From: Gossypium raimondii
Taxonomy: Eukaryota > Streptophyta > Magnoliopsida > Malvales > Malvaceae
Length of the DNA stretch: 64,000 nucleotides
NCBI RefSeq assembly: GCF_025698545.1
Contig: NC_068575.1
Coordinates: forward strand, 58,475,980-58,539,979
Direction: 5' to 3'
Below, one piece after another: positions 5,628-60,225 of the stretch (the first letter of the stretch is position 1; every line of letters begins with the position of its first letter). Position numbers and translations under genes: made by a program. The notes below the pieces were generated by a model that saw nothing but the letters and a program-made list of their open reading frames with translations, had not been told where the DNA came from and searched no databases.

Positions 5628-8600
5628 ATGAAAATGAAGCAGGTTGCCTTCCTTTTCCTCATTTTTCTCGCTTCCCAAACAGTCCATTCCTGGAAAAAAG
5701 ACGAGTTCCGAGCCTGCGACCAGACCCCCTTCTGCAAGCGAGCTCGATTTCGCAAACCCGGCGCCTGCACTCTAATCGCCCACGATGTCTCCATCTCCGA
5801 TGGTGATCTCACTGCCAAGCTCATTCCTAAAGCTCCACACGACCAAGACCAAGATCAGATCAAGCCGTTGACTCTCTCTGTTTCAGTCTACCAGGATGGG
5901 ATCATGCGGCTCAAGATCGACGAAGATCCCTCGTTGGACCCACCCAAGAAACGGTTCCAAGTCGCCGATGTGGTTGTTTCTGAATTCGAGACCAAAAAAC
6001 TCTGGTTGCAGAGTGCTTCCGCGGAGAAAATCAACGGCGATGATGGGGGTTTATCTTCCGTGGTGTACTTATCTGACGGATACGAGGCGGTTCTTAGGCA
6101 CGATCCTTTTGAGGTTTACGTCAGGGAGAAGGCAGGTAACCGACGTGTAGTTTCATTGAATTCACATGGGTTATTTGATTTTGAACAATTGAGAGTGAAG
6201 AAAGAGGATGAGGATTGGGAGGAAAGGTTTAGAGGGCACACTGATACTAGGCCTTATGGTCCACAGTCCATTAGTTTCGATGTTTCCTTTTATGGGTCTG
6301 ATTTTGTGTATGGAATACCGGAACATGCCTCTAGTTTTGCACTTAAACCCACTAGGGGACCTGGAGTTGAGGAATCTGAGCCATTTAGATTGTTTAACTT
6401 GGATGTTTTTGAGTATCTTCACGAATCGCCTTTTGGGATATATGGTTCTATCCCCTTCATGGTATCGCATGGGAAATCTGGACAAAGTTCTGGATTTTTC
6501 TGGTTGAATGCTGCGGAGATGCAGATTGATGTATTGGCAAAGGGTTGGGATGCTGAAGGTGGAATTCTGATGCCCACAGAGCAGAGTCGGATAGATACGT
6601 TTTGGATGAGTGAGGCAGGGATTGTAGATACGTTCTTTTTTGTTGGACCAGGACCAAAGGATGTTGTCAAGCAGTACGTGAGTGTAACAGGTCTGCCAGC
6701 AATGCCACAGCTGTTCTCCACGGGGTATCATCAGTGTCGCTGGAATTACCGGGATGAAGAGGATGTAGAGAATGTGGACTCCAAGTTTGATGAGCATGAT
6801 ATTCCATATGATGTTTTGTGGCTTGATATTGAGCATACTGATGGAAAGAGGTATTTCACATGGGATAAGATGCTATTCCCACATCCAGAAGAGATGCAAA
6901 GGAAATTGGCTGCCAAAGGTAGGCATATGGTGACAATTGTGGATCCACATATTAAGAGGGATGAGTCATTTCACTTGCACAAGGATGCTTCCCAGAGGGG
7001 GTATTATGTAAAGGATGCAACTGGCAAGGATTATGATGGGTGGTGCTGGCCAGGCTCCTCCTCCTACCCAGATATGTTAAATCCCGAGATTAGGTCATGG
7101 TGGGCTGAGAAGTTCTCCTATGATAATTATGTCGGTTCAACTCCTTCATTGTACATTTGGAATGACATGAACGAGCCTTCTGTGTTTAATGGACCTGAGG
7201 TATGCCACTTTTGTTAATCCTATTACCTATTCATGATGTTGTCCTTTTGTTATCTTCTTATCCCATTTTGCATTATTCTAATGCTTATTCTTCTAAGCTA
7301 TTATACAATTATATGCTCTAGCGTATTGCTGTCCCACCTATATCAATCAAGAAAAGATAAGAGGGAGAAGAGGAGAATGGATGTAGTTATGATTCAAGGG
7401 AAAAATATAGAGATTGCATAAGAAGTAATGGAGAGAAGAGCAAGAGATGAGATGAACACTTAATTAGAAGGTTCTCTTTTATTCAAGTAATAAATAAAAT
7501 TACACCTTTCTAAGTTGGTATTTTATTGGATTTTCTTATATGATGATCTAAAATTGTATTGTACATAGTTGTGACAAAATTCAGCTCACACTGTTCACTT
7601 AATTAATTATGAAGGAACTTAACTGCACAATCTGTCAGCAAATGTTTCTGTATTCAGGATAGTTCATACAATAAATATCCAAAAGTGGGCAATCATTGGT
7701 CTGCTAATAAACTCTATGCTACTTAAGTTGGATTGAACTTAATTAACCATTATATATGCCCTTAGACTGAATACAAGTGGACATAGCCACTTAATTAGTT
7801 GTGACAAAATTCAGCTCACACTGTTCACTTAATTAATTATGAAGGAACTTAACTGCACAATTTGTCAGCAAATGTTTCTGTATTCAGGATAGTTCATACA
7901 ATAAATATCCAAAAGTGGGCAATCATTGGTCTGCTAATAAACTCTATGCTACTTAAGTTGGATTGAACTTAATTAACCATTATATATGCCCTTAGACTGA
8001 ATACAAGTGGACATAGCCACTTAATTAGTTGTGACAAAATTCAGCTCACACTGTTCACTTAATTAATTATGAAGGAACTTAACTGCACAATTTGTCAGCA
8101 AATGTTTCTGTATTCAGGATAGTTCATACAATAAATATCCAAAAGTGGGCAATCATTGGTCTGCTAATAAACTCTATGCTACTTAAGTTGGATTGAACTT
8201 AATTAACCATTATATATGCCCTTAGACTGAATACAAGTGGACATAGCCACTCAGGTTCGCGCTTTTTATAGGTGGTTGTGGTTAAAATAGTAATGAACTG
8301 GTTGTACTTATTTCTTTACCTAAGATGCCTTCTTGCTTTTATTTAGTGCTATGTTACTTGGACTCTTTGTTTTTCTTGAAGTACCTGCATCTGATGCATG
8401 GATATGAGGATATGACCTTAAAGGCTTCTCCTAACACACGGAAAAACTTGAAAAAATCTAATCATACCCGTGCCTGATGCATATCCGTATCTGGCACACT
8501 CAAGTCTGACATAGATTTAGTGCATTAGACAGAAAAGGAAAAGAGACCTTCCCCTATGGAAAGCAGAGAAGAACATAGTTACAACCTTTTATCGGAGGAA

Positions 8601-11600
8601 ACTTGTTAATCATAAAGAATGCAGATTCTCAGATCTTTGGTTCTTGTTGTGGTTATTGGGAGTATTTTGTTGTATATCCATAATATGCACTTTTCATGCA
8701 GCATGGCCATTGGCCTTTTTATCAGGCTATTTTGTTTTAACCTGTTGTTTGGCATGATATATTTATTTACTTGTTTGCATATATAAACTAGATTAAAGTA
8801 ATAATAAGTGGGCATACTCTCTGTAGATAAATGTACTTAACATGGTACCCAGGTTTTCTAACAAATATTATCTGATTTAGCCTGATAAAAAGGAAAAGAG
8901 ACCTTCCCCTATGGAAAGCAGAGAAGAACATAGTTACAACCTTTTATCGGAGGAAACTTGTTAATCATAAAGAATGCAGATTCTCAGATCTTTGGTTCTT
9001 GTTGTGGTTATTGGGAGTATTTTGTTGTATATCCATAATATGCACTTTTCATGCAGCATGGCCATTGGCCTTTTTATCAGGCTATTTTGTTTTAACCTGT
9101 TGTTTGGCATGATATATTTATTTACTTGTTTGCATATATAAACTAGATTAAAGTAATAATAAGTGGGCATACTCTCTGTAGATAAATGTACTTAACATGG
9201 TACCCAGGTTTTCTAACAAATATTATCTGATTTAGCCATGATAGTGCTTTAAGTTGGGTGTTTAAGTTTATGGATGTTAGCATGCATGGATGTTATGCAG
9301 ACACAATTAGTTTGTCCTTATGTTTTGCGTTTCTCTATAATCTTGGTTATAATGTTTTCAATGAAATGGATAAGAATGTAAAGCTTTTATTTGTTTATCT
9401 ATTTTTTTGTGCTACAATTTTTGTTGTTTAGATAAGTAATGGTTGGCTAGTGATGATAGAAGTTCTTTATTTTCTAAATTAAGCATGAAAAATGTTTTCC
9501 TCTATTTGTCCAATGTTTGGAATGTAAAAGCATGTTTATAATCATGCTAGATTTGTTATTAATTAACTTCAAAACCGCTTTTCCATGAAGATGGAGGTGA
9601 AGTTATTTCTGAGTATTGTTTATCTACGGTGGCTGCACTTCGAAAACCATGGAAACTCTGTAGAATTTTTTTTTGCAAAAAAGCAGTCATACCTTGTTCT
9701 TATATATGGATGTGTGTGTGAACTCGTAAAAATTGCATATTAGCAGGCAAAATAGCACAAATGACTAAACTTTTGCTGTGGTTAGGTGACAATGCCCAGA
9801 GATGCTTTACATCTTGGTGGAGTGGAACATCGGGAGTTACATAATGCCTATGGATATTACTTCCACATGGCAACAGCTGAAGGCCTTCTAAAGCGTGGAG
9901 ATGGTAAGGACAGACCTTTTGTCTTGTCCAGAGCATTCTTTGCTGGAAGTCAAAGGTATGGAGCAGTCTGGACTGGTGATAATTCGGCGGATTGGGATCA
10001 TCTCAGGGTTTCAGTCCCAATGGTTTTGACGCTTGGTCTTACTGGAATGACATTCTCTGGTATGCATGCCATTTAAATGAAAAAAGTTAAAAACTTTTGC
10101 ACCTTCTCCCTTTTGATGTTAGATAAACTTTCACAGGGGCTGATGTTGGTGGATTTTTTGGCAATCCTGAGCCTGAGTTATTAGTGCGTTGGTATCAACT
10201 TGGTGCTTATTATCCTTTCTTTAGAGGTCATGCTCATCATGACACAAAAAGACGAGAGCCTTGGTTGTTTGGGTATGATATTTTTAACATCCATGTTAAT
10301 TCTACTCTCTTCATCTTGATGTATTAACATTCACTTTTCATATTTATATAAAATGTCACTAACATGCAAAACTACAACTGCATATTGAGCTCATTTCTTC
10401 ACCAAAGTTGCAGTAATCTCACTTAGGAACATTCCGCTGTTCTCATTTTCTTCCGCATCTCATTCTGGACATTTTAATGAGTTCCTGAATTGTTTTTATT
10501 CAACTTTACTTTTTCACTGTTGGTATGCCTGTCGTTTGAGTCTCCACTGAGAGCATGTGAATTGAATTCTGATCAGCAGCACTACATTGTATTTTGGGGG
10601 TATTGATCATTCTGAGCCTCCGTGATTTATGCAACTGCTTTCATTTGTGTTTAAGATTTTCTTGGAGTAAGTGATCTGGTTGATCCCTGAAAAAACCCTT
10701 TTAGTAGAAACGGTTTGACTGAAAGTAGTTTTCTGATCTGTTTTGCTTAATGTTATTGAAGTTCAAAATTCTAGTTCTCACACTGATTTATGATGGCTCA
10801 TTTCCTCAATAAGTAACTTCATTTTACTTATATGAATTTCAAGTTTATTTTCTTTCAAGTTTCAATTCTATGTTTTGGCTGGAAACTACAAAATAGTTTG
10901 GATTGTTGAGACATGCATAATTTGAGTCAAAGGTTCTTTGAGGGTGGCTACTTTATCTATATGAAGAGGACATGAACAAAGTGAATTTTGGTCAAGGATT
11001 TGACATAGCTGGATGTTTGTTTTTTTTTTTTTTTTGTAATAAAAGATATGGCCATGGATTTGAATAGAAAAATGTTATTTATGAAGGAAAGGTTTCCATG
11101 CCGAGCCTCAACTGCTCAATGACTGATTGCAAATCCAGTATTTGTAGCTACTAGTAACTCGAGTTTGCTTTTATGGCATTGCTTCAATGAATTTACTTGA
11201 TTTATTCTGAGGTTATGCAATGACTTGCACTATAAAAGCCCATATGGAGCCATTGTCAAAAATTATTATGAGGTTCCCATCCTAAAACCGCTTGGTATAG
11301 GTGGAAAGTCCCCTTTATTTAAGGACTTGTGATAACCCACTTTTAGTTGATATGGTATTTGTTCTCTCATCACTACTCTCAGTCCCCCCACACATCTAGG
11401 GGCAATAAATTATCATGTGGCATGTACTTTAACATATAGGTGGGTTTATTTTAGCACCACATCAATAAGCCTAGCTATCATTCCCTTAGTGCATCACGAA
11501 GGTTTAAAATGTGTTAGTATTTAGATTTAATTGCTCGACTGCGACTGAATTTTTGGTTTTCTGTTGCTAATCAGGACTATTTTTTCTTCCTCCTGTGAAG

Positions 11601-20275: not shown

Positions 20276-23200
20276 TTACATGCCACGATTAGGGCAGACA
20301 TTAGCAAAGTGTGATGGATCACCACAAACATAACACCTGTTGGATACAGGATCCCCGGTTGCTGACACAAAAGTCGTGTCAGCAGCATGTGATCTATTGC
20401 GACCAGATTGACCACGGCCACCTCTCCTGCCAGAATTGGATGCTGAGCAATTGGTGGAAGGAATGCTTCTTCCACCATTACCATTACTGACGCCATCCTC
20501 CCATCTGCATGAACATGGTTTGATGATTGAGTAAACCAGCCATTCGATGAAGCATGTAACATAACGACATCTTTTTTTAAGGCATGAACATTACACAAGA
20601 ATTAGATCAGATACATCTTTTGTGTATCTTATTTCCAAATGAAACTATTAATCACTGCCTGTCTCATTTGCCCTATTGGCACTATAAATGCATTTCAGAG
20701 CAACATTATTTAAGTTATAACATGTTAAAAAAAGTTACTTTTCGATCCAAAATCAGTGAAAATTGTTGTCATCACTTATCAGATGTATTTGAAAAGCACT
20801 AACGCAAGTTTAATTCTTTGAATCCTGAGGAGTGCTGCTGAATTGAACTATCAAAAATTACAAAGGGAACCAGTAGTTAGAGGAGAACATTCTCTTGAGC
20901 TTATTTTTACTTAGTGCTGCTGAATTGAACTATCAAAAATTACAAAGGGAACCAGTAGTTAGAGGAGAACATTCTCTTGAGCTTATTTTTACTTACATAA
21001 AGAAGTTGCATTCTTGTGATGGACATGAGTAGAACTTTCTTCCCCTGTTATTTGCTGTATTAGCAGTTCGTAAAACACATGGCATTCCACATGTGCTACA
21101 GGACACTGAAGGGTCCCCTGCAAAAATGCAAGCATCATAAAAAATAGACCAGTTTACTTTCAAAAAGAGAAACAAAAAAAGACCATTTCAGTTCCGTGTA
21201 GAGGATTCAGAATCGGAAATGAAAACTTAAGCAGCCAATGAAGGTCCAAGTGGAGATGATGGTAAATTATGCTATTCTCGACACAGAGCATGCCTGCCTA
21301 TGTCCTAGATGCCAGCACCTGCATCACAAACAACAATGAAAGGAAAACTATGCTATGCCTATAGAATATAACTTAAGTTTGTGATTGGGTTTTACAGATG
21401 TCTATTTCAAGTTTCAGCTTCTTTCAAGTTTGTTTTTGGGTTCAAAACGTGATGCCTATGTCCTAGATGCCAATTTTCTATCTAGTCAAGTAAGGTTGTT
21501 CAGCTTGAGTCAACTGTTACCACATCCAAAATGCGATGCTTAACCACAATATGCAATTTGTGCAAAGTATTATACTCAAGCCTACTGCAAGTGTAAATTT
21601 AACTATACTTTGATCAAGCAACAACACTTGTTCTTCTCATGAATGTTAAATTCATAAAAAGAAATAAATCTTTCTTCCATACCATTTTCTGAGTTAGTAT
21701 GAGACTGAGAATTTCGAGAACGTGAAAACTGTGAAGGGCAATCATTTGAAGAATGGCCTGTTTGCTGACAGTGTATGCAACTATTGTGTCTGTTGCTACT
21801 TCTCTGGCCATTGCTGGATGTTGTAGTGGGTCCTCTACCTCGTGCTGAATTACACATTAAACAAAATTACAAAAATCCTAATCTTTATCTTCCACTAGAG
21901 CAAGATATGCTAATACCAACTTATATTCATATTCCTACCTTCGTTTTTGAGTATATGCATATAGACACTTAAAATTCTAAGCACAAAAAGTGGATAGGGC
22001 ATTATCAATTGCAAGGACAAGATTCAATATAATGCAAGTAAAAGATTCAGCACAAATCTGATAACACCTTAACAGAATATTAATTAAATGTCAATTAAAA
22101 AAATTCTTAAACTGGCTAAGAATAAACTGTGATCGGTTCCTGGGAATTACATAAACAGATGATGCCAATAATAAGTGTTATGATTTCATTATTTTGGTAA
22201 ACACCAGAAGATCCATAAATCAAGTGTTACTCTTCCTTTTTGAACAGCTACATGATTACTACAGGTAAACAAGTATACAGACCTGACATGCGAGAACCTG
22301 TTCCACATATCTCAATCAGTTGTCTAAGAGTATCGTCACAACCGCCAATGCAACCTGAGCAGGTAGACAAGAAACTCTTCAGTCACTCACTACAAGGCAG
22401 CAGCTTTAGATATGAACATCGGTCAGATCCTTGTAAGTATACATGTTTATGCACAAGTTGTTGATTAAATGGAGACATGCTGAGTGTTGATTATCTATAC
22501 AAGGTAAAGAACAAGAAATAAATCTATATTGAGAATCTAAAAGTGTCCTATAGCAGAAGACAGTGAAGTTCAAAGTATAAACAATTTCATTTATGCTTGT
22601 TAACTTTTAGAGGAGTATCCAACCTAAAACAAATTGATCATTTCAAGTGGAGATAAAGCAAATCCAACATTTGTTAAATTGGGGGTAACCTAGCCTACTG
22701 TTGCCAAAGCACGTGCCTAGGCGCTAAGGCACCATGCAGAGTAAGTTACCTCCTTAAGAGCCTACAAGCAAGGCCTCTTGATGAGGCACCCCAAGGGCTT
22801 TTCGCATCTAGGATGCTTTTCTCTTAAGGTGTAAAAGAAGCAAATCCAAGTAAAATGGATTCCTACTGTTTTTTAAAATGTTATAACTTTTTTATTTTAG
22901 AAATTTTAAAAACTCACATTTAATCTTAATAGATAAATAAAAAAGGATTATACGGTCTATCCAAAGAAATAAACAGTGGCAACTATATCTATTGCTAAGG
23001 CTGAGTTTAGTAGAATGACGAGGGATTGTGAGCATATTTGGTTAATAACATTGCTAGAAGAGTTACGAGTTAAAAGTAATACAATGAAGCTTTAATGAGA
23101 TAATGAAGCTGCTATGAACATAGCTCATAATCCTATTAAGCATGATATGACAAAACATGATGAAGTTAACAGACCCTTCATCAAGGAAAAAATAGAGTGG

Positions 23201-26200: not shown

Positions 26201-29200
26201 CTGCATAGTTGTCACCCCCAACAGCTCGATTTGATCTGCAGAAGCAGTTAACATCACATCATAACAATCCAATATTTTCTGTTACAATATGGGGTATTAA
26301 ATAGTACCTCTCAAAGAAAACCGCCATAGCTTCTAATAGTTTCACTTTGTTCAACCTAGCCTGCATACCATACTCAGCTTGTAAAAAACATAACCTCAAT
26401 CAAAGTGCATATGAACACATCAACCAATCACAGTATTAATTAAGCAAATCTGTTGAAAATTTAATAGGTAGCACTAACTCCACAGGCACTTTATCTTCTC
26501 CCTGGCAAATCAGGCACATTTATTGCATAAGTCCCACCAGAGTCCAGACTACTCACAGGATAACTAATATTTGCATTAAAGAACCCAAAACAGGCATCAA
26601 AATTGCCTCATCCAAATTTGCGTTTAATAAATGCCAGTTTTTCTTTTAATTCCAAATAATGCATCAATTTAGGCATCATGGATCAAGTAATGTTGTGTTC
26701 CATGTATCATCAAGTAATGTTTTGTTCCATGTATCAATTTCATCATCTGTCATTCAGGTGTTAGAACTTGATAGCAATGTATCATCAACAGTATATGTCA
26801 GGTGGGATAGTATCCGAAAAGATAATCCCACAAATTGCAAGTAACTTACATCAAAGAAGCAAGCTTTCATCTGCTGCAAGCAAGTTGCCAAAACTTCATC
26901 TTTACTCTTATTGCCTACACTAACTTCTTTCATGTCAAACTCCATCATCGACCTGAGATTTGGTTTCCAGAGTTCATACCTAGATATCCATAATGAATGA
27001 CAAACAAAAATAGGTAAGAGGATGGAAGACGATATTGTTTACGATACAACCACTTCCATGAGCCCAATAAAAACTACCGCAAAAGCACTACCGCAAAAGC
27101 AAATACTTAGTGACTTCAGGTAATACGGCTACCAACCAAAACAATCACATAATAGAGGCTTTTGGAAGGTCATCTTTCAAAAACATAAACAGCAGTGCAA
27201 CTTAGCATGTCCATCCTCATCCATACAACTTTGCAAGGTTAAACGATTCAGTTTTCATATGATAGGAGGAAAAATATATAGGAACTCATGTGAGTGATTT
27301 AGAGAACAAAAACAAGTAGTATCTAATTCTTGAAACAATTTCTACACATGTTTGCAACAGGTTAGCACGAGGAATTGTTTTCTAGTTAATTAAGGCTTCG
27401 AACGGGCAGATCCTGAATGAATTTGACTCTGTCCATGATAATTCCTTCATTTTTACTGTTAGAGACTAACTCATGTTCACTAATAATTCAAGCATGGTGT
27501 TTGAGCTCATATTCATGTCTGTTTAAATTAAATGAGCATGTTTGTGAACATACTGAACATGTTAGGAACAATTAGAAATTGAAAGCATAAATAAATATAG
27601 TAATAAAGAACAAAAATCAATAAAATATAATGTTTTTTATTGTCAAACAATAAACAAGTTATAAACGAGTTTTGCATCAATTATGAGCGAGTTTGTTCAT
27701 AAACATAAAGAATTGAACACATTTTGTTCAAGACCAGATTGTTTATTAAATGAGCTCTTAAATTTTGTTCAAAACTATTTGTTTAGATTATCACATGAAG
27801 AGAAACCAAACCCATTCACAAGAGTTGCTCACCAATTGTTCTGTTTGATTTATAGTCATAGTCTTACAGGACCAATTACTCCATTGAAGTAGTGTTCAGA
27901 AAGACAGCAAAAGGAAGGAAATATGCATCACTTTTCAATATGTTTTAACCCCCTAAATCCTAATTGCCTCTCATAATCACCATATTTTGAAGTTGGAAAA
28001 ACTTGTGTTGAGAAATGTGTCTCTTTTAGTAGACTTCCTATAAATTCAAATGCCTCAACTAAATAGTAGACTTCTCCAAATGAAATATATTCTAGAATAG
28101 CCCTGAAGTTTACTATAGCCTAATATCACTATTTTGACAAATGAAACTGTAAAAAAGTACAACAGAAATAAATATAAACAATGCACCTTCATTACTATTT
28201 CAGATATGTCATGCCACTTATAAACTTGACATTAAACCAATTAACCTTTCAACAAGTGAAATAAGAATTAAGATTGTGTATATTGTCCTTAACACTTTAA
28301 TTTAAGTAAACTGGCTTCTCAAAAAAATAAAATAAATCCTACTTACCCCATGTCATCATATCCCATAACCAGTTTTAACCCCCTAAATCCTAATTGCCTC
28401 TCATAATCACCATATTTTGAAGTTGGAAAAACTTGTGTTGAGAAATGTGTCTCTTTTAGTAGACTTCCTATAAATTCAAATGCCTCAACTAAATAGTAGA
28501 CTTCTCCAAATGAAATATATTCTAGAATAGCCCTGAAGTTTACTATAGCCTAATATCACTATTTTGACAAATGAAACTGTAAAAAAGTACAACAGAAATA
28601 AATATAAACAATGCACCTTCATTACTATTTCAGATATGTCATGCCACTTATAAACTTGACATTAAACCAATTAACCTTTCAACAAGTGAAATAAGAATTA
28701 AGATTGTGTATATTGTCCTTAACACTTTAATTTAAGTAAACTGGCTTCTCAAAAAAATAAAATAAATCCTACTTACCCCATGTCATCATATCCCATAACC
28801 AGTGCTTCACCCTGAGATTACAAAAGTCTCATAGTCAGTACCAATCAACTTCTGTCATAAAACTACTATTACAACTTAGTAAGAAACACATTTTATTTTT
28901 TATTGGGAAAAAATAAGGAAATAAGAGAATGTTAGGTAAGTAGGGTAGTTCCTTAGACTCTTAGAGGAGTCCCTTTTATAGCCTACTTTTTTTCCTATAT
29001 ATTTTAGTTAATATACAAGAGTGATTTTCCCATATTTTGCATGGAACCAGAACTGAATGCTCTCTGGGAATCTGCGTAAAATTGCAGCCTGCAATGCTGA
29101 ATAGAAAGTTATCTAGAAAAAAGGTTTCATTTTTTAGGCCTGCTTTGTCATTTTCTCCAGGACTCTGAATCATGTCTTCTTGAGCACAGATTTATCTTCT

Positions 29201-50461: not shown

Positions 50462-52902
50462 TCAATCTGACGTAGCAAGGGCTGATTGCAACACATCTTC
50501 CAGGTATTTTTCAGCAGCAGCATACTGCCTTTTCTTGTCCTCAATTGCTAAGGCAGCTAAAGCTTTATCCTGCACGAACAAAAATAAAATAACGGTAACA
50601 CTGCGCACTTCTTTAGAGCACATTCCCTCCTTGCAAGGACAAGGATATGGAAACTAGGGCCCCAAGTCCAAAACATTCTAGACAAAGATGAAGACCAAAA
50701 TTGAACTTTGAACATAGACCATCTGAATTAACAATGTTACCTATATTATGACTTGTCAATAAGGATGCAAGTTTTACATAACATGCAGTGCCAAGCAGGG
50801 TACCACCAAAATGTTAAGACACGTGGAAAAAGTGCGTCTACTTATGTGTTTGATGAGATTAAATGCACATCAAATATAAATTCTGTTCATTTATTTATAT
50901 CAAAACCATAAACAATCTTGAGAAAGAAATATACAAAAATACTATGCGAAGCTTCACTACAAAGATCCATAGAAACCTCATATATTTACAATTACTATTT
51001 TACTCTTGTAGCTTTACATGAAGACATGATGGGTGATGAACAGACAAGAGGATCCATTACCAAAGAGTCTGATATAGGAAATAAAGACCAAGTATAATGG
51101 AGAAGAAATTTTGATATGTATATAGAAAACATTAACACCAAAGCACAATAGTGCTCCAATGCCAACCATGATAACATATTACCGGAGGTAGGTCCTGGTA
51201 GCTCCTCAAAGTATCTAAGATGGGTTTGGTCTTCTTCTCTAAGTCCTTCCTGTGTTCGGCCATTTCAACCAACACCCCATGATTAATTTCAGGTGTGTAG
51301 CCCACACGATTCAGTAATGCCTGTCAAACAAGATTAAGCATAAATGAAACGCAGAAAGAATTCATGCAAGCAACATATAGGTGATAATTAGATCGCCAAA
51401 ATCTTGATAAATTAACAATGAGTGAGAAAACAAGAATAGGTACATCCTTGTAGCTTTATATGCAGTACTTTATTATTTAAATTCCAATATATGCAAAAGT
51501 GCAATATTCACCAAGGAAAATGATTCTTCTACTAAAATGATCTAATGATAAATTGTCCAAGACTATGAACTAGTACCTCAGCTAATGATTTTTTCAGCTT
51601 TAAAACAGAATCCGTACAATAATTCTATTCCAACTCTACCTATATATGAAGTTCTAAGTCTCCTGTTCAATCCATTTTATTTATAATTTCGAATAGTAAT
51701 AAAAAGTCATTTTATACATTGAAATGTCCTGTCTATATGATTGATAAACTTTAACCCTACCACTCAAATCAAACCATGCATATCCAGTTAAATTTCATCC
51801 ACTTACGGCAGAGGCAGCTTCTCTTTCCACCCATTTTTGTCCCTTTTAACTGATAAATAGCATGTTCATCTCAGAAGAACCAACAGCTTAAATTTCTGTA
51901 ACTAGTTTTGCATCTTAATGCATCCCTGAAAATTAAAATACAAAGGATACCTTATAGTTGTTAAACTGTTGCATGTACTGTCGCTCCTTTGATGCCATAA
52001 CACCCAAGTTCGTCTTCCAATTTTCCATTTGAGCATCACATGGAGCCACATCATCTTCTAGTTGTGCTAATGTCCTATATGAAAATATCAATTTCTTCTC
52101 AATAACCATCAAATAGATTCAAACGAAGGGCTAAAATTAGGGTGGTAAACGTACAAATTCCTTACCTTTTCAAATAGGTTAACCTAGCTATTGCTTTTCG
52201 AGTATACTCAAGAAGAGTTTTGGACTCTTTGTGCACTTTAGCCCTCTTCTCATCTACCCCAGTCTTTCTCAAAGAAATATCACCCATTGCTACAAGAAAA
52301 CTAGATCCATTTTGTTTTTCTTCCTCGTTAGGTTCCAAATATAATACATGGAAATCAACATGAATTACGGAAGTTTTCAAAATTGTAAATCGAAAGCAAC
52401 CCACCTACTAAGTTCGGTGTCTCGAATATTCAACAAATTAGCAACGTTTGCCAGAACTTGCGCCGATGCAACCACATTTGACGGCAAACTCTCCTGCGCT
52501 AATCCTACGTTCTCCAATATCTCTCTAATTCGAGCAGCTATAAGAGATTTCAATTTTAGGAAGAACAAGATGAAATTGTTTGAATTTGAGAATTTCAATT
52601 CAATTTAGAAAGAAAAATAAAAACAAATTAGGACCTTGAGAACGGTATTCGGCGGCTTTCTGGCGAAAATCGTTGGCAACAATGTTGGCAGCTTGAGTCT
52701 TTGCCTGCGAGACGGTAGCCAGATTGTACAAATGAGCAATGCTTCGCGGAGTGTATTCGAAATCAGGGACTTCTTTCCCGGCGGCATCGAACTGAGCCGC
52801 CAGCCACGCCTTCACTTCCGCAATTCGAGCGGCATTGGATCCGCCGCCCTTTGTTGCATCCGTTACCACCGGTTCACCCACTCCGGAGATCATTTCATTC
52901 AT
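50462..52902 (-). CDS. AUG1: HAUS augmin-like complex subunit 1, 6 exons
   Basis: Subunit of augmin, which recruits gamma-tubulin to existing microtubules to branch the spindle and phragmoplast. Exons, in transcript order: 52902-52635, 52537-52405, 52300-52166, 52074-51951, 51320-51183, 50569-50462; GT-AG, 301 residues. Family blocks include KAWLAAQFDAAGKEVPDFEY near the N-terminus, LYNLATVSQAKTQAANIV, ARIREILENVGL, LPSNVVASAQVLANVANLLN, the basic KAIARLTYLKR helix, LNRVGYTPEI and a C-terminal KYLEDVLQSALATSD. The protein is mostly predicted helix and coiled coil. I chose the first ATG (52902); a second ATG lies three codons on (52893). It is convergent with the KIWI gene. It is recognised with high confidence by resemblance to Arabidopsis AUG1. 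Confidence 0.93.
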
Positions 52903-53180
52903 TTTTTAAGTCGTGAGTCGACTCAGTGAGTTGGAAGCGAGTACCACAGATTCTGATTCTGAAGGAGAAGAGGGTTACGCAAACCGTCGCAGGACCAAAC
53001 GGAAAAATGTTGATCTCGCCGTCGCCGGGATAACTTTTCAATTTTCAATAGAACTGATCAAATTGTTTGATCGAAAATAACATTTTAACCCCCCCCCCAT
53101 TTAAATTGGAAAAAAAAAAAACTCGCCCGGGTTTATTTATGGCATTATTTCTAAACTAATTTGAAATGAAAAGATAAAAA

Positions 53181-53406
53181 GGATTAAACTACCAAAATAG
53201 TTACTTTTGTTTGACTCAGGTTACATTTTAGTCATTTATATTTGATATGTTACATTTTAGTCACTTACGCTATCGTGTTATAACATTTTAATCACTAAGC
53301 CATTAATTACTCTTAACGGTGTAATGGTAAGCTAACTTGTCACGTTAAACCATCATTTCAAATGAAAATTTTAGATTAAATTATATAATTGGTCCCTATG
53401 TTTTTC
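53181..53406 (+). repeat. Left terminal inverted repeat of the MULE
   Basis: Pairs with 57970-58193 in inverted orientation over about 225 bp, with scattered mismatches. The outer end is GGATTAAACTACC. Confidence 0.85.
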
Positions 53407-54411
53407 GTTTTGAACAATTTTTTTTCTTTTATGTTGTTTTAGCTTCCTTCTTTTTCTTCTTATTTTCCATTCTTTTGTCAAGAAGTCTAAACAGAAAGAT
53501 TAACTTGTTAGTAAGAAGAGGATTATTAATACGAGGGTGAATAGTTTTTTTTCTTAAAAAAAAAAGAAAGGAAAGATGATGACGGTGTAGTGCCAAAGCA
53601 AAATCTTGAGAAGCAAATAGAGAAACAAAAGGGATGCATGGCTGGCTTCCTTCAGATCTTTGATCGTCATTGACTTCTCTATGGCAAATGCCTTTGCTCC
53701 CCTAAGTGCATGTAACAGCTCGATTTCGACCCTAATCGGATATAGTAGTTTCAGGACTACAAATTTGAGTCAAAAAATATTTTAATATTATTTCGTGTGT
53801 TTATTATGTGTGAATTTGATTGTGTGAAATTTTCGTGTTCTAATTTTATCGTTTGAGTGGCCAATTAAAGAAAAAGAGCTTAATTGCGTAAAATGAAAAA
53901 TTGGCTAGTTAATGTGTAAAGTGTTAAATTGCTAATTTCTTTTTAATATGGAGTCCTTAATAGGTAATAAGCCCACTATTAAGTGAGTGAGTGATAATGA
54001 TCAAGAATGACCTTGTATTATAAAGTATAAATATTTAGAAACAAAGGTTAAGAAGGTAAATTAATAATATGTTAATATATGTTAACTAATAACAAATTAT
54101 AATTCATTAGTCATTGTAAAAGCTTGATTCAAGATCAAGAACCGAAGAAAACGGAATTGGATAGGGGGAAGTTGAAAGTAATCGAGTAGTCGACTGTGTT
54201 CGTCGAAATTTGAGGTAAGTCGATGAGCTTTTAAATTTTGTTCAATTCATTGGTATATAGTAGATAGGTGATAAATGGAATTATTGAATGTATTAGAAGT
54301 CTTGGCCGATTGTATTTGTTGAAATAGGTAAGTTATTTGAGTTCAATTCAATTGATAATTAATGTCTGTAAGCCCGTACTAACCCTAGAAATGCATGGGA
54401 TTTTCTGATAA

Positions 54412-54621
54412 GTGTTTTCGTGTAAGACCACGTCTAGGATGTTGGCATCGACTTGTGTTTTCGTGTAAGACCACGTCTGGGACGTTGGCATCAACTTGTG
54501 TTTTCATGTAAGACCACATCTGGGACGTTGGCATCGACTTGTGTTTTCTGTAAGACCCTGTCCGGGACAGCGGCGTCGATCCGTGATTACATGTAAGACC
54601 ATGTTTGGGACGTTGGCATTG
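54412..54621. repeat. 43-bp minisatellite, five copies
   Basis: Units begin at 54412, 54455, 54498, 54541 and 54583. The consensus is like GTGTTTTCGTGTAAGACCAC followed by GTCTGGGACGTTGGCATCGACTT. The last two units are the most diverged. It lies inside the LTR-type insertion. Confidence 0.9.
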
Positions 54622-55367
54622 TACGAATCTTACGACTATTCTCGTATCCTATTTAATTTCAACCGATTCAACGGGCAATGTTAAAGGAAGACGGTTATAT
54701 AATTGAAATATATGTGCAGGTATGTATTAGTTAAATAAATATATGGAAATAAGGTAAGTTATTCATTTGGAATTATATATAGTATGTTTGTACAAGTTTC
54801 GTATTATTATCGTTGTATATATGTGTATAATTCGGATTTTGGTTGATAACTATATTGTTAAAGGTAAAAGTTTTATATGCATTTTACAAGGACATAATCG
54901 GTTATTAAATTATATATATGTGGTTAAAGTGTGATATGTAATATATAATATTTTTGTATAATAAACTATGTGCCTTTAATTCTTACTAGTTAAATATTAT
55001 TTATGCTTACAACTTACTAAGCTTTAAATAGCTTGTTGTATGTGTTTGTGTTTGTTTATCTTTGATTTATAGATTTTGAAGTCGTTACGAGCTTGGGGAT
55101 CATCAGTAAAGCCTATCAAACTATCGACTAATTACGGTATCTTATAAGTTGAAATTTAATTTGGGGCTATGGCATGTATAGATTAGATTTTAAGTTTGCT
55201 TAATTCGAATGTGTATATACTAAAGCCATGCGAAAATGGCTTAATTAGCTTGTTGTGTTCGTTTTTGGGTGAATTATGGTTTAAGCATATTTTGGTTATG
55301 GTTAAGCATTTTATGGATGGTATTATATATGTGAATGTTACGTGTGACTTGTTTGAATTAGTAGTAA

Positions 55368-55422
55368 AGTGAATATATGATATGATTTATAAATAGTGAA
55401 TATATGATATGATTTATAAATA
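55368..55422. repeat. 27-bp tandem duplication
   Basis: Two copies of a 27-bp unit starting AGTGAATATATGATATG at 55368 and 55395, within the LTR-type insertion. Confidence 0.85.
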
Positions 55423-55671
55423 GAAGTGTACTTGTAGATGTCGAGGTGAATTACTTTAGTATTATTGATAAAGTAAATGAATGTTTGCATATTCAATTGT
55501 GTATTGATTTGGATTTGTGGTTTGGATATGAAATTTCAAATGGTATGTTTAATTAGTGAGGTTGATTTTAAATGATAGTATATGTGTATATGTTTGATAA
55601 ATTAATGTGATTACCGATAGTTATAAATTTGATATTTATTTTATAGCATGTAATAATATGGTATGGATTAA

Positions 55672-55673
<2 letters not shown>

Positions 55674-55722
<49 letters not shown>
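55674..55722. repeat. (TA)n microsatellite
   Basis: An uninterrupted AT dinucleotide run of nearly 50 bp inside the LTR-type insertion. Confidence 0.95.
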
Positions 55723-55725
<3 letters not shown>

Positions 55726-56737
55726 GGAAATGAAATGCTTAGTTTGTATGGTAATGTAATGAAATATAGACTTTGGAAGTGGTTTAAATATGAGCATTTG
55801 TGCGCATGCATTTAAATAGATAGTTCGATTATATGTATTTAAACAGGTAAATGATATGTCGTATATGCATTGGTATTGGATGATCAATTTGGTTAGTTTG
55901 ATGTTAGATTTATTTTAGGCATATAATGCAATAGACAAATTGGTATTAGTTTAGCCACTTCAATTCGATTATTTAGTAAAGAAAATTTCTATGCCTGGGT
56001 TTGCATTCGGTTTTAAATAGGACAAATTAGTCTGATCACATGATTTTATTATAAGCCATGTATATTCGGCTATGGTAGGAGTTTGTGATAGGTAATTAAA
56101 AATGATGCAAATAGATTCGGATTTGTATTTTGATTATAAGATTTGTAAATGTTTGAATGTACTTGGATTATGGATCAAATGATATTAAATTGTATGTGTG
56201 TGAGTTTGTTAATGAATTTGATTAGTTTCTATATAGGTAGCCAAGTGGAAATGACCTATTTTTCTTTATGCTTGCATTCAGTTTGTTTAACCATGATTTA
56301 TTCATTAATAGTTATGCTTGGTTTTGAAGCTTTTGTTAAATTTGATTAAAATGGTGTTTTAGTTTATGCATATTCGGTCATGGGTTAAATTCATGTTAGT
56401 TATTATATTTATTAGTATAAGAATATAATTTGTTATTCAAGTTGTATTTATATTTGATTAATTTATGTATAGGTTGAATAAGAATTTTGAGATTTAATAA
56501 ATAGGTATAAGGAAATATTGTATTTTCAAATAGATTATATTTGTTTCATGTTTAATTCAAAAGTGTGGTTGACTATGAAATTTGATTAAGTGTTGTATTA
56601 TCTTAATGAATATATATAATGTTTCTTGGAAATGGTAAGATTATATATTTGACTAAGAATAGTGAAATTTTAATTTATTCAAATTGAGAAAATGTACACC
56701 TTTATTATATTTGAATGGTTAGTCTATGTATTCAATT

Positions 56738-57160
56738 TAGAGGTGATCATGGGCCCTCAGAAAAAAATTTCGGCCCGTGTCCTAGGCCCGGGCCCGGTCC
56801 TGCTCGGCCCGAAATATGGGCCTAAAATTTTGTTTAGATCCGGCTTGGGAAAAAATTCTTAAGCCCGAGCCCGGCCCAGCCCGGCTCATTTTTTAATAAA
56901 CACCGAAAATTTATTTTAAAAATAAAAAATAAAAAAACGTATTTTAAAAATATTTTAAAATTAAAAATTAAAAAATATATTTATTATATTCGAGCCGGGC
57001 TCGGGCCAAAAAGTGGTGCCCGAGGCCCGGTCTGTTTTCTAAACGGGCCTCGTTTTTTTGCCCAAACCCATATTTCTGGCCTATATTTTTACCCTAACCC
57101 TCCCATATTTCGAGCGGGCCGTCAGGCTGGGTCGGGCCGCCCTGCCCATGATCACCTCTA
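56738..57160. mobile_element. hAT-type MITE nested in the LTR-type insertion
   Basis: A 423-bp element with perfect 17-bp terminal inverted repeats (TAGAGGTGATCATGGGC / GCCCATGATCACCTCTA) and a perfect 8-bp target duplication ATTCAATT (56730-56737 and 57161-57168). The interior is strikingly GC-rich at both ends, with many GGCCCG / CGGGCC strings, around an AT-rich middle. No transposase. The youngest of the three nested insertions by position. Confidence 0.9.
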
Positions 57161-57969
57161 ATTCAATTTGATTGTTAAGCATGCAAATTTGGTTTATTTG
57201 AATTGTTATATTTGATTTTGCTAAGCTAAATATATATAAAAACATAGTGCGTGATTCATTTTTTTTTAGTTTTACCATTTATTAATTAAAATTAGAATTA
57301 AACTTTTGGTTTGGTAATGTCTCGTAACCCCAATCCGGCGATGGTCACGGGTTAGAGGTGTTACAGTGCCTCCTTCATGTGGAAACGCCGATTGACTTTT
57401 ATTTTTTGATCTCTGTATTTTTTCTTCTTCTTCTTTTTCTTTTTTACTTTGGTTTGTATTATTTTATCAACTTTTTTTAATTTGTTTCTGGTGAGTGAAA
57501 AGAAAACGGAGCAAGTGAAGACCGTTGAGACACCAACAATATTGAGAGAATTAGAGAAGCAACCACAAGGTCAAGCAGCAGCTTCACTAGACCATTCGAA
57601 GCAATCTCTAGTTACATTCGAGCTCCGATATTCGGCATCAGAACTTCCCACGCATACTGGTAATCAGAGCAAGTCACCTTTCCCCCTTCCTGTTTTTTAG
57701 TACAAAGAAGGTAGCGCAAGGTCGCCATGGAAATTTTTCAAGGAAGTTCTGATGCTCTCTCTGGATAGCAGAGTTGTCGTTGATGCCAAAAGAAGCCTTA
57801 AGCCCCACGAGATCCATGCGAATGCCTCCATATTATTTGCAAACCAATGCGAAGATGAGGTGGATGACAACAATAAACAATGGTAGCCACCAAGCATAAT
57901 TGCAAGGCTTATGGGATTGGAACCGTTACTAGATTCAAATCCTGAACCAAACGAAAAAGCTCAAAATGA

Positions 57970-58193
57970 TAAAATATAGGGGGTAATTGTATAATTTAAC
58001 CTAAAATTTTTATTTGAAACGATGATTTAATGTGCCACATCAGCTTACCATTACACTGTTAACGATAATTAACAGCTTAGTGACTAAAATGTTACAACAT
58101 GATAATGCAAGTGACTAAAACGTAACATTTTAAACATAAGTGACTAGAATGTAATTTGAGGCAAACAAAAATGATTATTTTGATAGTTTACCC
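57970..58193 (-). repeat. Right terminal inverted repeat of the MULE
   Basis: Inverted partner of 53181-53406. The outer end, in reverse complement, is GGGTAAACTATCAAAATAA. Confidence 0.85.
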
Positions 58194-58203
58194 AAAAGAT
58201 AAA

Positions 58204-59356
58204 TATCTCAATTGTTACAAAATGTTAAGGTTAAACTACAACTAAGGTCAGTAAACTTTACATTTTGGTCACTCAACTTTAAAAAGTTACAAGATAGTCA
58301 CAGAATTATTCAAAAGTTTTCATTTAAGTCACTAAGTTGTTAAAATCATTGTTGTATGACCTTTTTTGTTCATACTGCTTGCACCAATTGAAAGCTCTCA
58401 TTCCCTTCTCTTCTACAACTCAATTTTTTGTTTATGAAACAACTTTAAACGTCACAAACCTACGAACCAAAATCAAAATAGTTTTTTTCTTCAATTTCTG
58501 ACACTGACAGTTGAGTCTACTTGGATCTAAGATATGTTATTCTACTCATCAATGGGTGGGGGTGGTGAAACAGTTAGCTCAATTAATATCTGAACCGAAT
58601 TACCATTAACCGAAACCATAAAAATCTTAATCGTTAACTGAACCGAATTATTTTTCAAAATCTTTTAACCAATCAAAATAATTTCGGTTAATTCGAGCGA
58701 TTAATCGAATTAACTAAAATTTTTACATGTTTATTTTTGCTTTGTTCAAATAAGTTTGAAACATGCAAAAATACCATTGCAATGTTATTTTTTCTCTGCT
58801 TTTAATTAAAAAAACAACAATTGACACAAAAACACTAATTTAAAATCATCGTAACAAACATTGAATTAAAAACAATAAAGTTTGAGACTTGAGTGATGAA
58901 ATGAAAAAAAAGAGTTTGAAAATGAAGAAAAAATTCGAAAAAAGTCAAGAAGAATAGAAGATGTTCTATTGTCAAGCGGTGCCCGGTGCCCACCTAAACT
59001 TTATTTTGAGTTTGGCGATGGAAAGAAGAAGAAATAGGACTTCTTCGTTTTAATTTTTTTACTTTTCATTTATTTTGAGTTTAAAAATTAATACTCAATC
59101 AACAATTTTACCTATAATTAAGCCTAAATTATCATTTCTTGGTGTCTAATTAAAGTTTAGCTAATTATCATTTTATGAAAATAATTTTTTCACCTAATGA
59201 AATAATTTTCCTTAATTCAAAACCTTTTTTTCATAAATATTATTATTTTATTTATTTAATTCTTACTGATATATCAGAAACTATCTATTTTAAGACATAA
59301 GTAAACTATTTATCAGTAAACAGCTTAAGCTACAGTCTTATAATTCCCAAAGAAAA
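58204..59356. other. Intergenic region with a lone repeat arm
   Basis: About 58220-58365 reads AAACTACAACTAAGGTCAG and then TTTTGGTCACTCAACTTT and CATTTAAGTCACTAAG. It resembles one arm of another Mutator-type repeat family, but no opposite arm was found nearby. Around 58590-58720 the motif AACCGAATTA recurs in both orientations; this looks like decayed repeat DNA. No gene is seen. Confidence 0.5.
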
Positions 59357-60225
59357 TCATAGTTTGACTTTCCCTGCAAGCATAAAAGCCTTGTAAGCAA
59401 TTGATCTAACCAAATTAGACCTACCCCATGCACTCTTCAATTCTTTCACAACATTTTCAGACAACAAATCAACGCCCTGATTTTTCGCTGTAACAACCGC
59501 CGACCAAGATCTCAACATTCTCAACAATCCCTCGAACGACAGTTTCTTAGGTATGTCCAACGCCAATGGCTGCCCTTCAGATCCCAAACCAACACTTTCA
59601 AATGGAAAAGGCAGTGTTTTATACCCATCAAAAACGTACTGAATGTTGGGGTTCCAATAAGGAAGCGTGGTGTCGTGGAACCGCTTCATTACGGGATCAA
59701 ATGTTGGGCTAACGGCGATGTCGTTGTAGCACCAGATGGCGACGATACCGCCGGGCTTCCGTAGAAGTCTGGTTACCAGAGAGTAGAACTTTGGTAGATC
59801 GAACCAGTGAACTGCTTGAGCCACCGTGATTAAATCGACTGAGTTTTCACCTCCGATTGAAGATAGCAATTCCTCGTCGGAGATTGACAACGGAGTGTAG
59901 AGATATTTTACCTTTGGGTGCGGTATTGCGTGTTGTAATTGGGCTTCACTCACATCAGTGCCGATCACCTGCTCGTAATGCTCAGCAACCTGGAAAATTA
60001 AACATAAAAAAACATAACCTATTGGGTTTCTTTTACCCAGTAAAGTAATTTGGAAACTTGGGAAATAGTACTGACACCAATAGCAGCTTGACCATTGCCT
60101 GTGCCCACATCCCAAGCCAGAGAGCGGTGGAGAGTGCGAGCGGCAAGCATAGAATACCACTGGAAGGGATACGTTGGCCTTGCGTCTAAGTAAAGATCTG
60201 CTTGCTGGTCGAACAATCCTGCCAT
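59357..60225 (-). CDS. SAM-dependent methyltransferase (type 11-like), 2 exons
   Basis: A class I methyltransferase of unknown substrate. Exon 1 is 60225-60076 and exon 2 is 59989-59357, joined across an 86-bp GT-AG intron in frame; 260 residues. The N-terminal MAGLFDQQADLYLDARPTYP is typical of a plant family usually annotated as putative methyltransferase. The SAM-binding motif I is WDVGTGNGQAAIG (residues 38-50). Then come HYEQVIGTDVSEAQL (motif II acidic Asp), DLITVAQAVHWFDL (motif IV region) and RKPGGIVAIWCY (motif VI region). All core motifs are intact, so it is probably active. Divergent from the membrane protein gene at 61385. I cannot name its substrate from sequence. Confidence 0.88.

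Follow-up and report, generated by a model that had tools for sequence, protein, structure and literature searches.

Three nested transposable elements upstream of HAUS1 in Gossypium raimondii: a probable Pack-MULE with a LONGIFOLIA-type gene fragment, holding a probable solo long terminal repeat and a hAT-type element

The DNA analysed here, called the window, is a stretch of 64,000 nucleotides from Gossypium raimondii (assembly GCF_025698545.1, contig NC_068575.1, positions 58,475,980 to 58,539,979 of the forward strand). On its minus strand HAUS1, the gene of augmin subunit 1 (PF25762), has its start at 52902, and about 267 bp upstream of this start codon lies a complex of transposable elements that extends over 53169-58203 and has three nested levels. 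A pair of outer terminal inverted repeats (TIRs) encloses a middle element of the long terminal repeat (LTR) type, which in turn holds a hAT-type element (Table 1). In terms of its sequence the outer element is a Pack-MULE, a Mutator-like element (MULE) with a captured host gene fragment, here from a LONGIFOLIA-type gene.

Boundaries of the complex and the outer element

An earlier note, made from the letters of the window alone, had described a MULE bounded by inverted repeats of about 225 bp, then an LTR-type element with TGTAACA...TGTTACA ends between GTGCA and GTGCC, and last a 423-bp hAT element with perfect 17-bp TIRs and a perfect 8-bp duplication. These boundaries and duplications can be observed directly. 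The outer repeats align over 220-230 bp, thus over more than 100 bp, the flanks of the middle element agree in four of five bases, and the inner TIRs agree in 17 of 17 with an exact duplication of ATTCAATT. The proposed order, with the MULE first and the hAT element last, is borne out by empty sites at both inner levels. To this description our analysis adds that the MULE is probably a Pack-MULE whose cargo is a LONGIFOLIA fragment, that the LTR-type sequence would be a solo LTR and that the left TIR is about 296 bp long.

Table 1. Predicted features of the nested complex, in window coordinates
Feature	Position	Strand	Remarks
MULE target duplication, left copy	53169..53177	.	AAAAGATAA; 3 further A to 53180; 9-10 bp duplications in relatives
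Left TIR of putative Pack-MULE	53181..53476	+	about 296 bp; inner ~60 bp common to other family members
Cargo, first part	53482..53710	+	stretch ahead of the start codon, start region and exon 1 (homology 53584-53706), with a single in-frame stop
LTR target duplication, left copy	53706..53710	.	GTGCA
Putative solo LTR	53711..57365	+	TGTAACA...TGTTACA; 3655 bp with hAT element, 3224 bp without; holds 43-bp minisatellite and (AT)n
hAT target duplication, left copy	56730..56737	.	ATTCAATT, exact 8 bp
hAT-type MITE (miniature inverted-repeat transposable element)	56738..57160	+	423 bp; perfect 17-bp TIRs TAGAGGTGATCATGGGC (17/17)
hAT target duplication, right copy	57161..57168	.	ATTCAATT, exact 8 bp
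LTR target duplication, right copy	57366..57370	.	GTGCC
Cargo, second part	57371..57963	+	last part of exon 1, the intron and exon 2 as far as the VARLMGL motif; interrupted by two in-frame stops
Right TIR of putative Pack-MULE	57961..58193	-	233 bp
MULE target duplication, right copy	58194..58202	.	AAAAGATAA

The two TIR arms (53185-53404 and 57971-58190) are 82% identical over 220 nt, with 39 mismatches of which 33 are transitions, and in a self-comparison of the window the alignment has 82.2% identity over 230 aligned bases (E 8e-62). A chance inverted repeat was considered and rejected. The left TIR extends as far as about 53476, and the additional stretch of some 60 bp adjoins the TIR in many other members of the family; the right arm ends at 57961, where the captured gene starts. 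The element has no transposase of its own in that no stop-to-stop frame of 150 amino acids or more is found within 53181-58193, and the cargo accounts for the interior.

An exact 10-mer, AAAAGATAAA, is found at both ends of the MULE (53169-53178 and 58194-58203), its left copy two bases from the TIR. When stretches of 46 bases from the window were paired at random, up to 20,000 times, 107 pairs shared an exact 10-mer. A 9-bp duplication directly touching the left TIR was looked for at the window element and not found. In relatives with clear duplications these are 9-10 bp long and lie at the TIR ends or at most 2 bp away. Because the duplications of the relatives adjoin the TIR ends, the left copy is probably the 9-bp AAAAGATAA plus three extra A.

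Searches of the plant's own genome (750,779,957 bases in 281 contigs) found at least 39 other matches to the TIR at 85-88% identity, from 40 scored of 2580 candidates. An exact duplication of 9-10 bp was present in 10 of the 19 other elements of the TIR family that were tabulated (best of shifts up to 6); 8 of the 27 loci had no clear second TIR and were left out of this table. A subgroup of the family, about 1.5-1.6 kb in length with interiors roughly 85-94% alike, comprises L003, L007, L008, L009, L010, L012, L016 and L028. In the window itself a second MULE-TIR-like stretch (GGTTAAACTACAACTAAGGTCA..., 58229-58355) starts about 23 bases beyond the right MULE duplication. Its local score against the right TIR is 82, and for the left TIR a score of 51 was reached in 200 shuffles; no partner for it was found within the window.

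The middle and inner elements

When the first 1200 bp of the middle element are compared with its last 1200 bp, no direct repeat appears apart from chance matches of 22 bases. A genome search with its 3' end (40 scored of 340 candidates) gave 12 other matches of at least 85% over nearly the whole query. The nine sister LTRs examined have a common terminus, GTGTTACA (GTGTTATA in L049), followed by differing flanks. At the 5' side seven stretches were fetched and five reached the end of the element (L059 starts inside it and L060 gave no match). Four of the five sisters read at both ends are observed to be single units of 3046-3617 bp with 5-bp duplications, which we read as AATAC/AATAC, AACAA/AACAA, AAACT/AAACC and CATTG/CATCG (two of 5/5 and two of 4/5); the terminus of the sister with AATAC/AATAC reads TA. 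Since the sisters are single units of solo-LTR span with 5-bp duplications, we conclude that the middle element is, as judged by these copies, a probable solo LTR. Inside it the minisatellite (4.9 copies) occupies 54412-54619 and the (AT)n tract 55675-55721.

Several observations sit less comfortably with a solo LTR. The duplication of the window copy, GTGCA/GTGCC, matches in only four of five bases, the fifth sister (L049) is shorter and has no duplication, and two open frames of 142 and 99 amino acids downstream of L049 matched no Pfam family. Ten of the 25 listed open frames in the LTR region were compared with Pfam as well and gave matches below the cut-off only, so that with the ten frames here and the two behind L049 no retrotransposon gene was found beside any copy of the middle element. 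Together with ends that form a 7-bp inverted repeat, this would suit an element of another type with short inverted ends. We regard such an element as unlikely, given the TG...CA ends and the 5-bp duplications of the sisters. L049 is also followed, in the position expected behind a 5' LTR, by the stretch TCGTATCAGAGC, which agrees in 11 of 12 bases with what we take to be the plant initiator-tRNA primer site.

The inner element, which is short, non-coding and multicopy, is one of a family of hAT MITEs. The superfamily name rests on the length of the target duplication and on a TIR type that is presumably that of hAT elements. The genome search (40 scored of 3650 candidates) gave family members of 82-87% identity besides the element itself, and among the matches scored the window MITE has no close sibling, the best being at 87%. 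In nine other copies the duplication is exact over 8 bp in four and 6/8 in one, with one end missing in four. All nine sister LTRs examined, from 39 other matches, are read straight through at the site of the MITE, where ATTCAATT or a close variant of it occurs once. It has to be considered that the MITE was first inserted in another copy of the LTR and was then carried in by the LTR retrotransposon. The nesting alone is compatible with this, and the MITE has more private divergence than the LTR, but the site being empty in all nine sisters makes it very unlikely. An LTR without the hAT element is what the earlier nesting order predicts.

The captured gene fragment

In the cargo of the outer element a LONGIFOLIA-type gene is represented by its 5' portion, with 5' flank, exon 1, an intron and part of exon 2. 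LONGIFOLIA-like proteins of plants are matched by the frames to the left and to the right of the LTR, including a LONGIFOLIA protein of Salix and two predictions from G. barbadense, and of the four matches listed in a protein search with the cargo one is a named LONGIFOLIA protein. The last part of the cargo contains PF14383 (VARLMGL) with a score above the Pfam cut-off. The reading frames hold three in-frame stops. The intron is still present in the cargo, and therefore DNA and not mRNA would have been taken up.

A genome search with the right half of the cargo found nine places: the window copy itself, six strong matches (80-85%), a paralogue on C8 (69%) and one weak piece. TIRs are present at both ends in L039, L040 and L041, at the right end only in L042 and L043, and at neither end in L038 (in the order L039, L040, L041, L042, L043, L038 the same places are also labelled L031, L034, L035, L032, L033, L030). 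The copies with TIRs are on C2, C9, C11 and C13, and the three that keep both TIRs have target duplications of 9/9, 8/9 and 8/9. Wherever the junction between cargo and TIR is preserved, its position is observed to be the same to within a few bases.

The place without TIRs, L038 (C11:51.53 Mb), is on the same contig as the window, 7 Mb away. There we observe a donor-like gene, in which an open frame of 600 amino acids runs across the captured part and contains PF14383; PF14309 (DUF4378) is found in another frame. Among the rows compared L038 is the closest to the window cargo (88%) and is equal or closest to the other copies. On account of the open frame, the domains, the lack of TIRs and this closeness, the L038 gene is the likely donor of the captured fragment. 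The common junctions argue that the fragment was captured once and then spread to at least six places, a question on which the tree gives no help.

The tree does not group the Pack-MULE copies against the donor but is a star with weak inner forks. Of 763 columns only 2 show derived changes shared by the copies, and in 7 the copies have the same base as the C8 paralogue and the donor stands apart. A star of this kind may mean either that the spread took place soon after capture or that the tree cannot resolve it. The end branches are 0.093 for the window copy and 0.035 for the donor, and 78 of the 100 differences between these two are transitions. In L032 the 5' stretch has been replaced, which also lengthens its branch in the tree.

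The presence of the donor-like gene on the same contig might suggest instead that the fragment arose by an old local duplication and came to lie between two MULE ends by chance. With the same fragment found within the same TIR junctions on four contigs, and with target duplications around the copies that keep both TIRs, we consider this extremely improbable. The donor has a single GCGCC at the LTR site, against GTGCA-insert-GTGCC in the window, and because the donor reads GCGCC the right copy, GTGCC, looks ancestral and the left one changed. The idea that the LTR-type sequence is no insertion but a regular internal component of the MULE family, to which its position between the TIRs and its 4/5 duplication might lend something, deserves next to no credence, as its site is read straight through in all five Pack-MULE relatives and in the donor, its ends occur in none of the 27 other loci of the TIR family, where the middle of the LTR matches at an AT repeat only, and the same LTR is present at unrelated sites elsewhere in the genome. 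A 4-of-5 flank match is found in one of 21 pairs of TGTAACA and TGTTACA that lie 0.1-20 kb apart in the window. The ends and flanks by themselves are thus modest evidence, to which the observed empty sites and sister copies add backing.

One of the Pack-MULE copies, L042 (G000:C11:6579500-6586500), is 98% identical to residues 1-45 of the predicted G. barbadense protein GOBAR_DD36111. By this match the prediction is a transposon-borne fragment annotated as a gene, and it illustrates a route by which such fragments enter annotations.

Divergence, history and context

Private change was counted as changes in which the window copy departs from most of its relatives; such counts give only an upper bound on insertion age. 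It amounts to 64/732 (0.087) in the cargo, 29/1590 (0.018) in the LTR and 23/385 (0.060) in the MITE. The cargo count excludes L032 and L036, and the LTR count excludes L050, L052 and L054, which form a separate or shorter group; L054 was also omitted from the tree of sister LTRs. The excess of the cargo over the LTR (Fisher p 6e-14) agrees with insertion of the MULE before the LTR. A simple clock is contradicted at the inner level, where the MITE has more private change than the LTR around it (p 4e-5), and the change within the LTR is itself uneven: among 7 rows the window copy ranks lowest in the 3' part, with 14/1195, and highest in the 5' part, with 15/395. Methylation was examined as a cause of the hAT excess and found insufficient: outside CG and CHG contexts the MITE still has 15/316 changes and the 3' part of the LTR 12/1164 (p 9e-5). 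Transversions number 6/385 in the MITE and 2/1195 in the 3' part of the LTR (p 0.004).

The simplest reading of the excess, with relatives that are few and of three kinds, is that the MITE was already old when it transposed here by cut and paste, leaving no close sibling. We suggest tentatively, and with rather more doubt than confidence, that most of its private mutations may have been gained elsewhere, before it entered a much younger LTR. If this were general, the private divergence of a MITE would overstate the age of its insertion, and nested sites with empty-site controls could be used to measure the excess. The mismatch between nesting order and MITE divergence is a small warning for the dating of insertions. 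The earlier note had also held that the states of the target duplications fit the insertion order. Its figures are correct, yet the decay of duplications is a weak clock here, because the LTR duplication has one mismatch though the LTR is young, and because the private divergence of the MITE exceeds that of its host. According to the excerpted text of one study, LTR divergence makes roughly a quarter of nested retrotransposons seem older than their hosts (PMC7251063).

Taken together, a history of four events, namely capture and spread of a Pack-MULE, decay, insertion of an LTR element that became a solo LTR, and insertion of a hAT MITE, appears to us very probable. A Mutator-like family would have taken up a genomic segment of about 0.8 kb, with its intron, from the 5' region of a LONGIFOLIA-type gene, and with transposase presumably supplied in trans the fragment would have spread to at least six places, a copy of about 1353 bp landing about 267 bp upstream of the HAUS1 start codon. 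The window copy would then have decayed, gaining stops and mostly transitions. An LTR retrotransposon would next have entered the captured exon 1, making a 5-bp duplication, and recombination between its two LTRs would have left the solo LTR of about 3.2 kb. Finally the 423-bp hAT MITE would have entered the LTR and made its 8-bp duplication, possibly as the cut-and-paste move of an old copy.

Pack-MULEs of rice and other plants were reportedly described by Jiang et al. in 2004. In the excerpts available from the literature, MULEs have target duplications of 8-11 bp and Pack-MULEs are carriers of host gene fragments that lack transposase (PMC6446971); they are annotated in rice and other plants, cotton being unmentioned in that excerpt (PMC8903248), and numbers are given for rice (PMC12030055). 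The outer element resembles those described in these excerpts in its long TIRs, 9-bp-type duplication, intron-bearing host fragment, lack of transposase and multicopy capture (PMC8903248, PMC12030055, PMC6446971). It differs in detail and not in kind, in having a cotton host and a LONGIFOLIA-type cargo and in being broken by two later insertions. As in the plant solo LTRs of the excerpt from PMC7251063, the middle element has one LTR, TG...CA ends, a 5-bp duplication and no internal region; at about 3.2 kb it is unlike them in length, the median in that paper's set being 552 bp. The nest as a whole likewise has younger elements inside older ones, but unlike those in the excerpt it combines three superfamilies, with each level except the outermost checked by empty-site copies (PMC7251063). 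In being short, non-coding and multicopy, with 17-bp TIRs and an 8-bp duplication, the inner element is like other hAT MITEs and differs from them in nothing of kind, only in its want of a close sibling. A literature search found no paper that joins Pack-MULEs and LONGIFOLIA, which is no proof that the family is unpublished.

Structures of this kind are common in plants and belong to the ordinary history of plant genomes. The value of the present one would lie in a clean and checkable record, within one genome, of the capture, spread and decay of a fragment of a growth gene and of two later insertions, both inner sites being empty elsewhere.

To the right of the complex a gene on the minus strand (59357-60037) encodes a methyltransferase, with 99% identity over 93% of the query to a protein of G. 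armourianum and 96% to one of G. stocksii. An Rfam search and a tRNA scan each gave 0 matches, and two exact patterns searched in viral contigs gave 0 and 0. The self-comparison of the window also revealed near-identical tandem duplications (99.6-100%) at 7566-8251, 8533-9243, 27942-28803 and 20831-20995, with steps of about 230, 356, 432 and 83 bp, which may be either recent duplications or assembly effects. The segment 4381-4751 matches its own reverse complement at 68% over 394 aligned bases and may be an imperfect palindrome or a foldback element.

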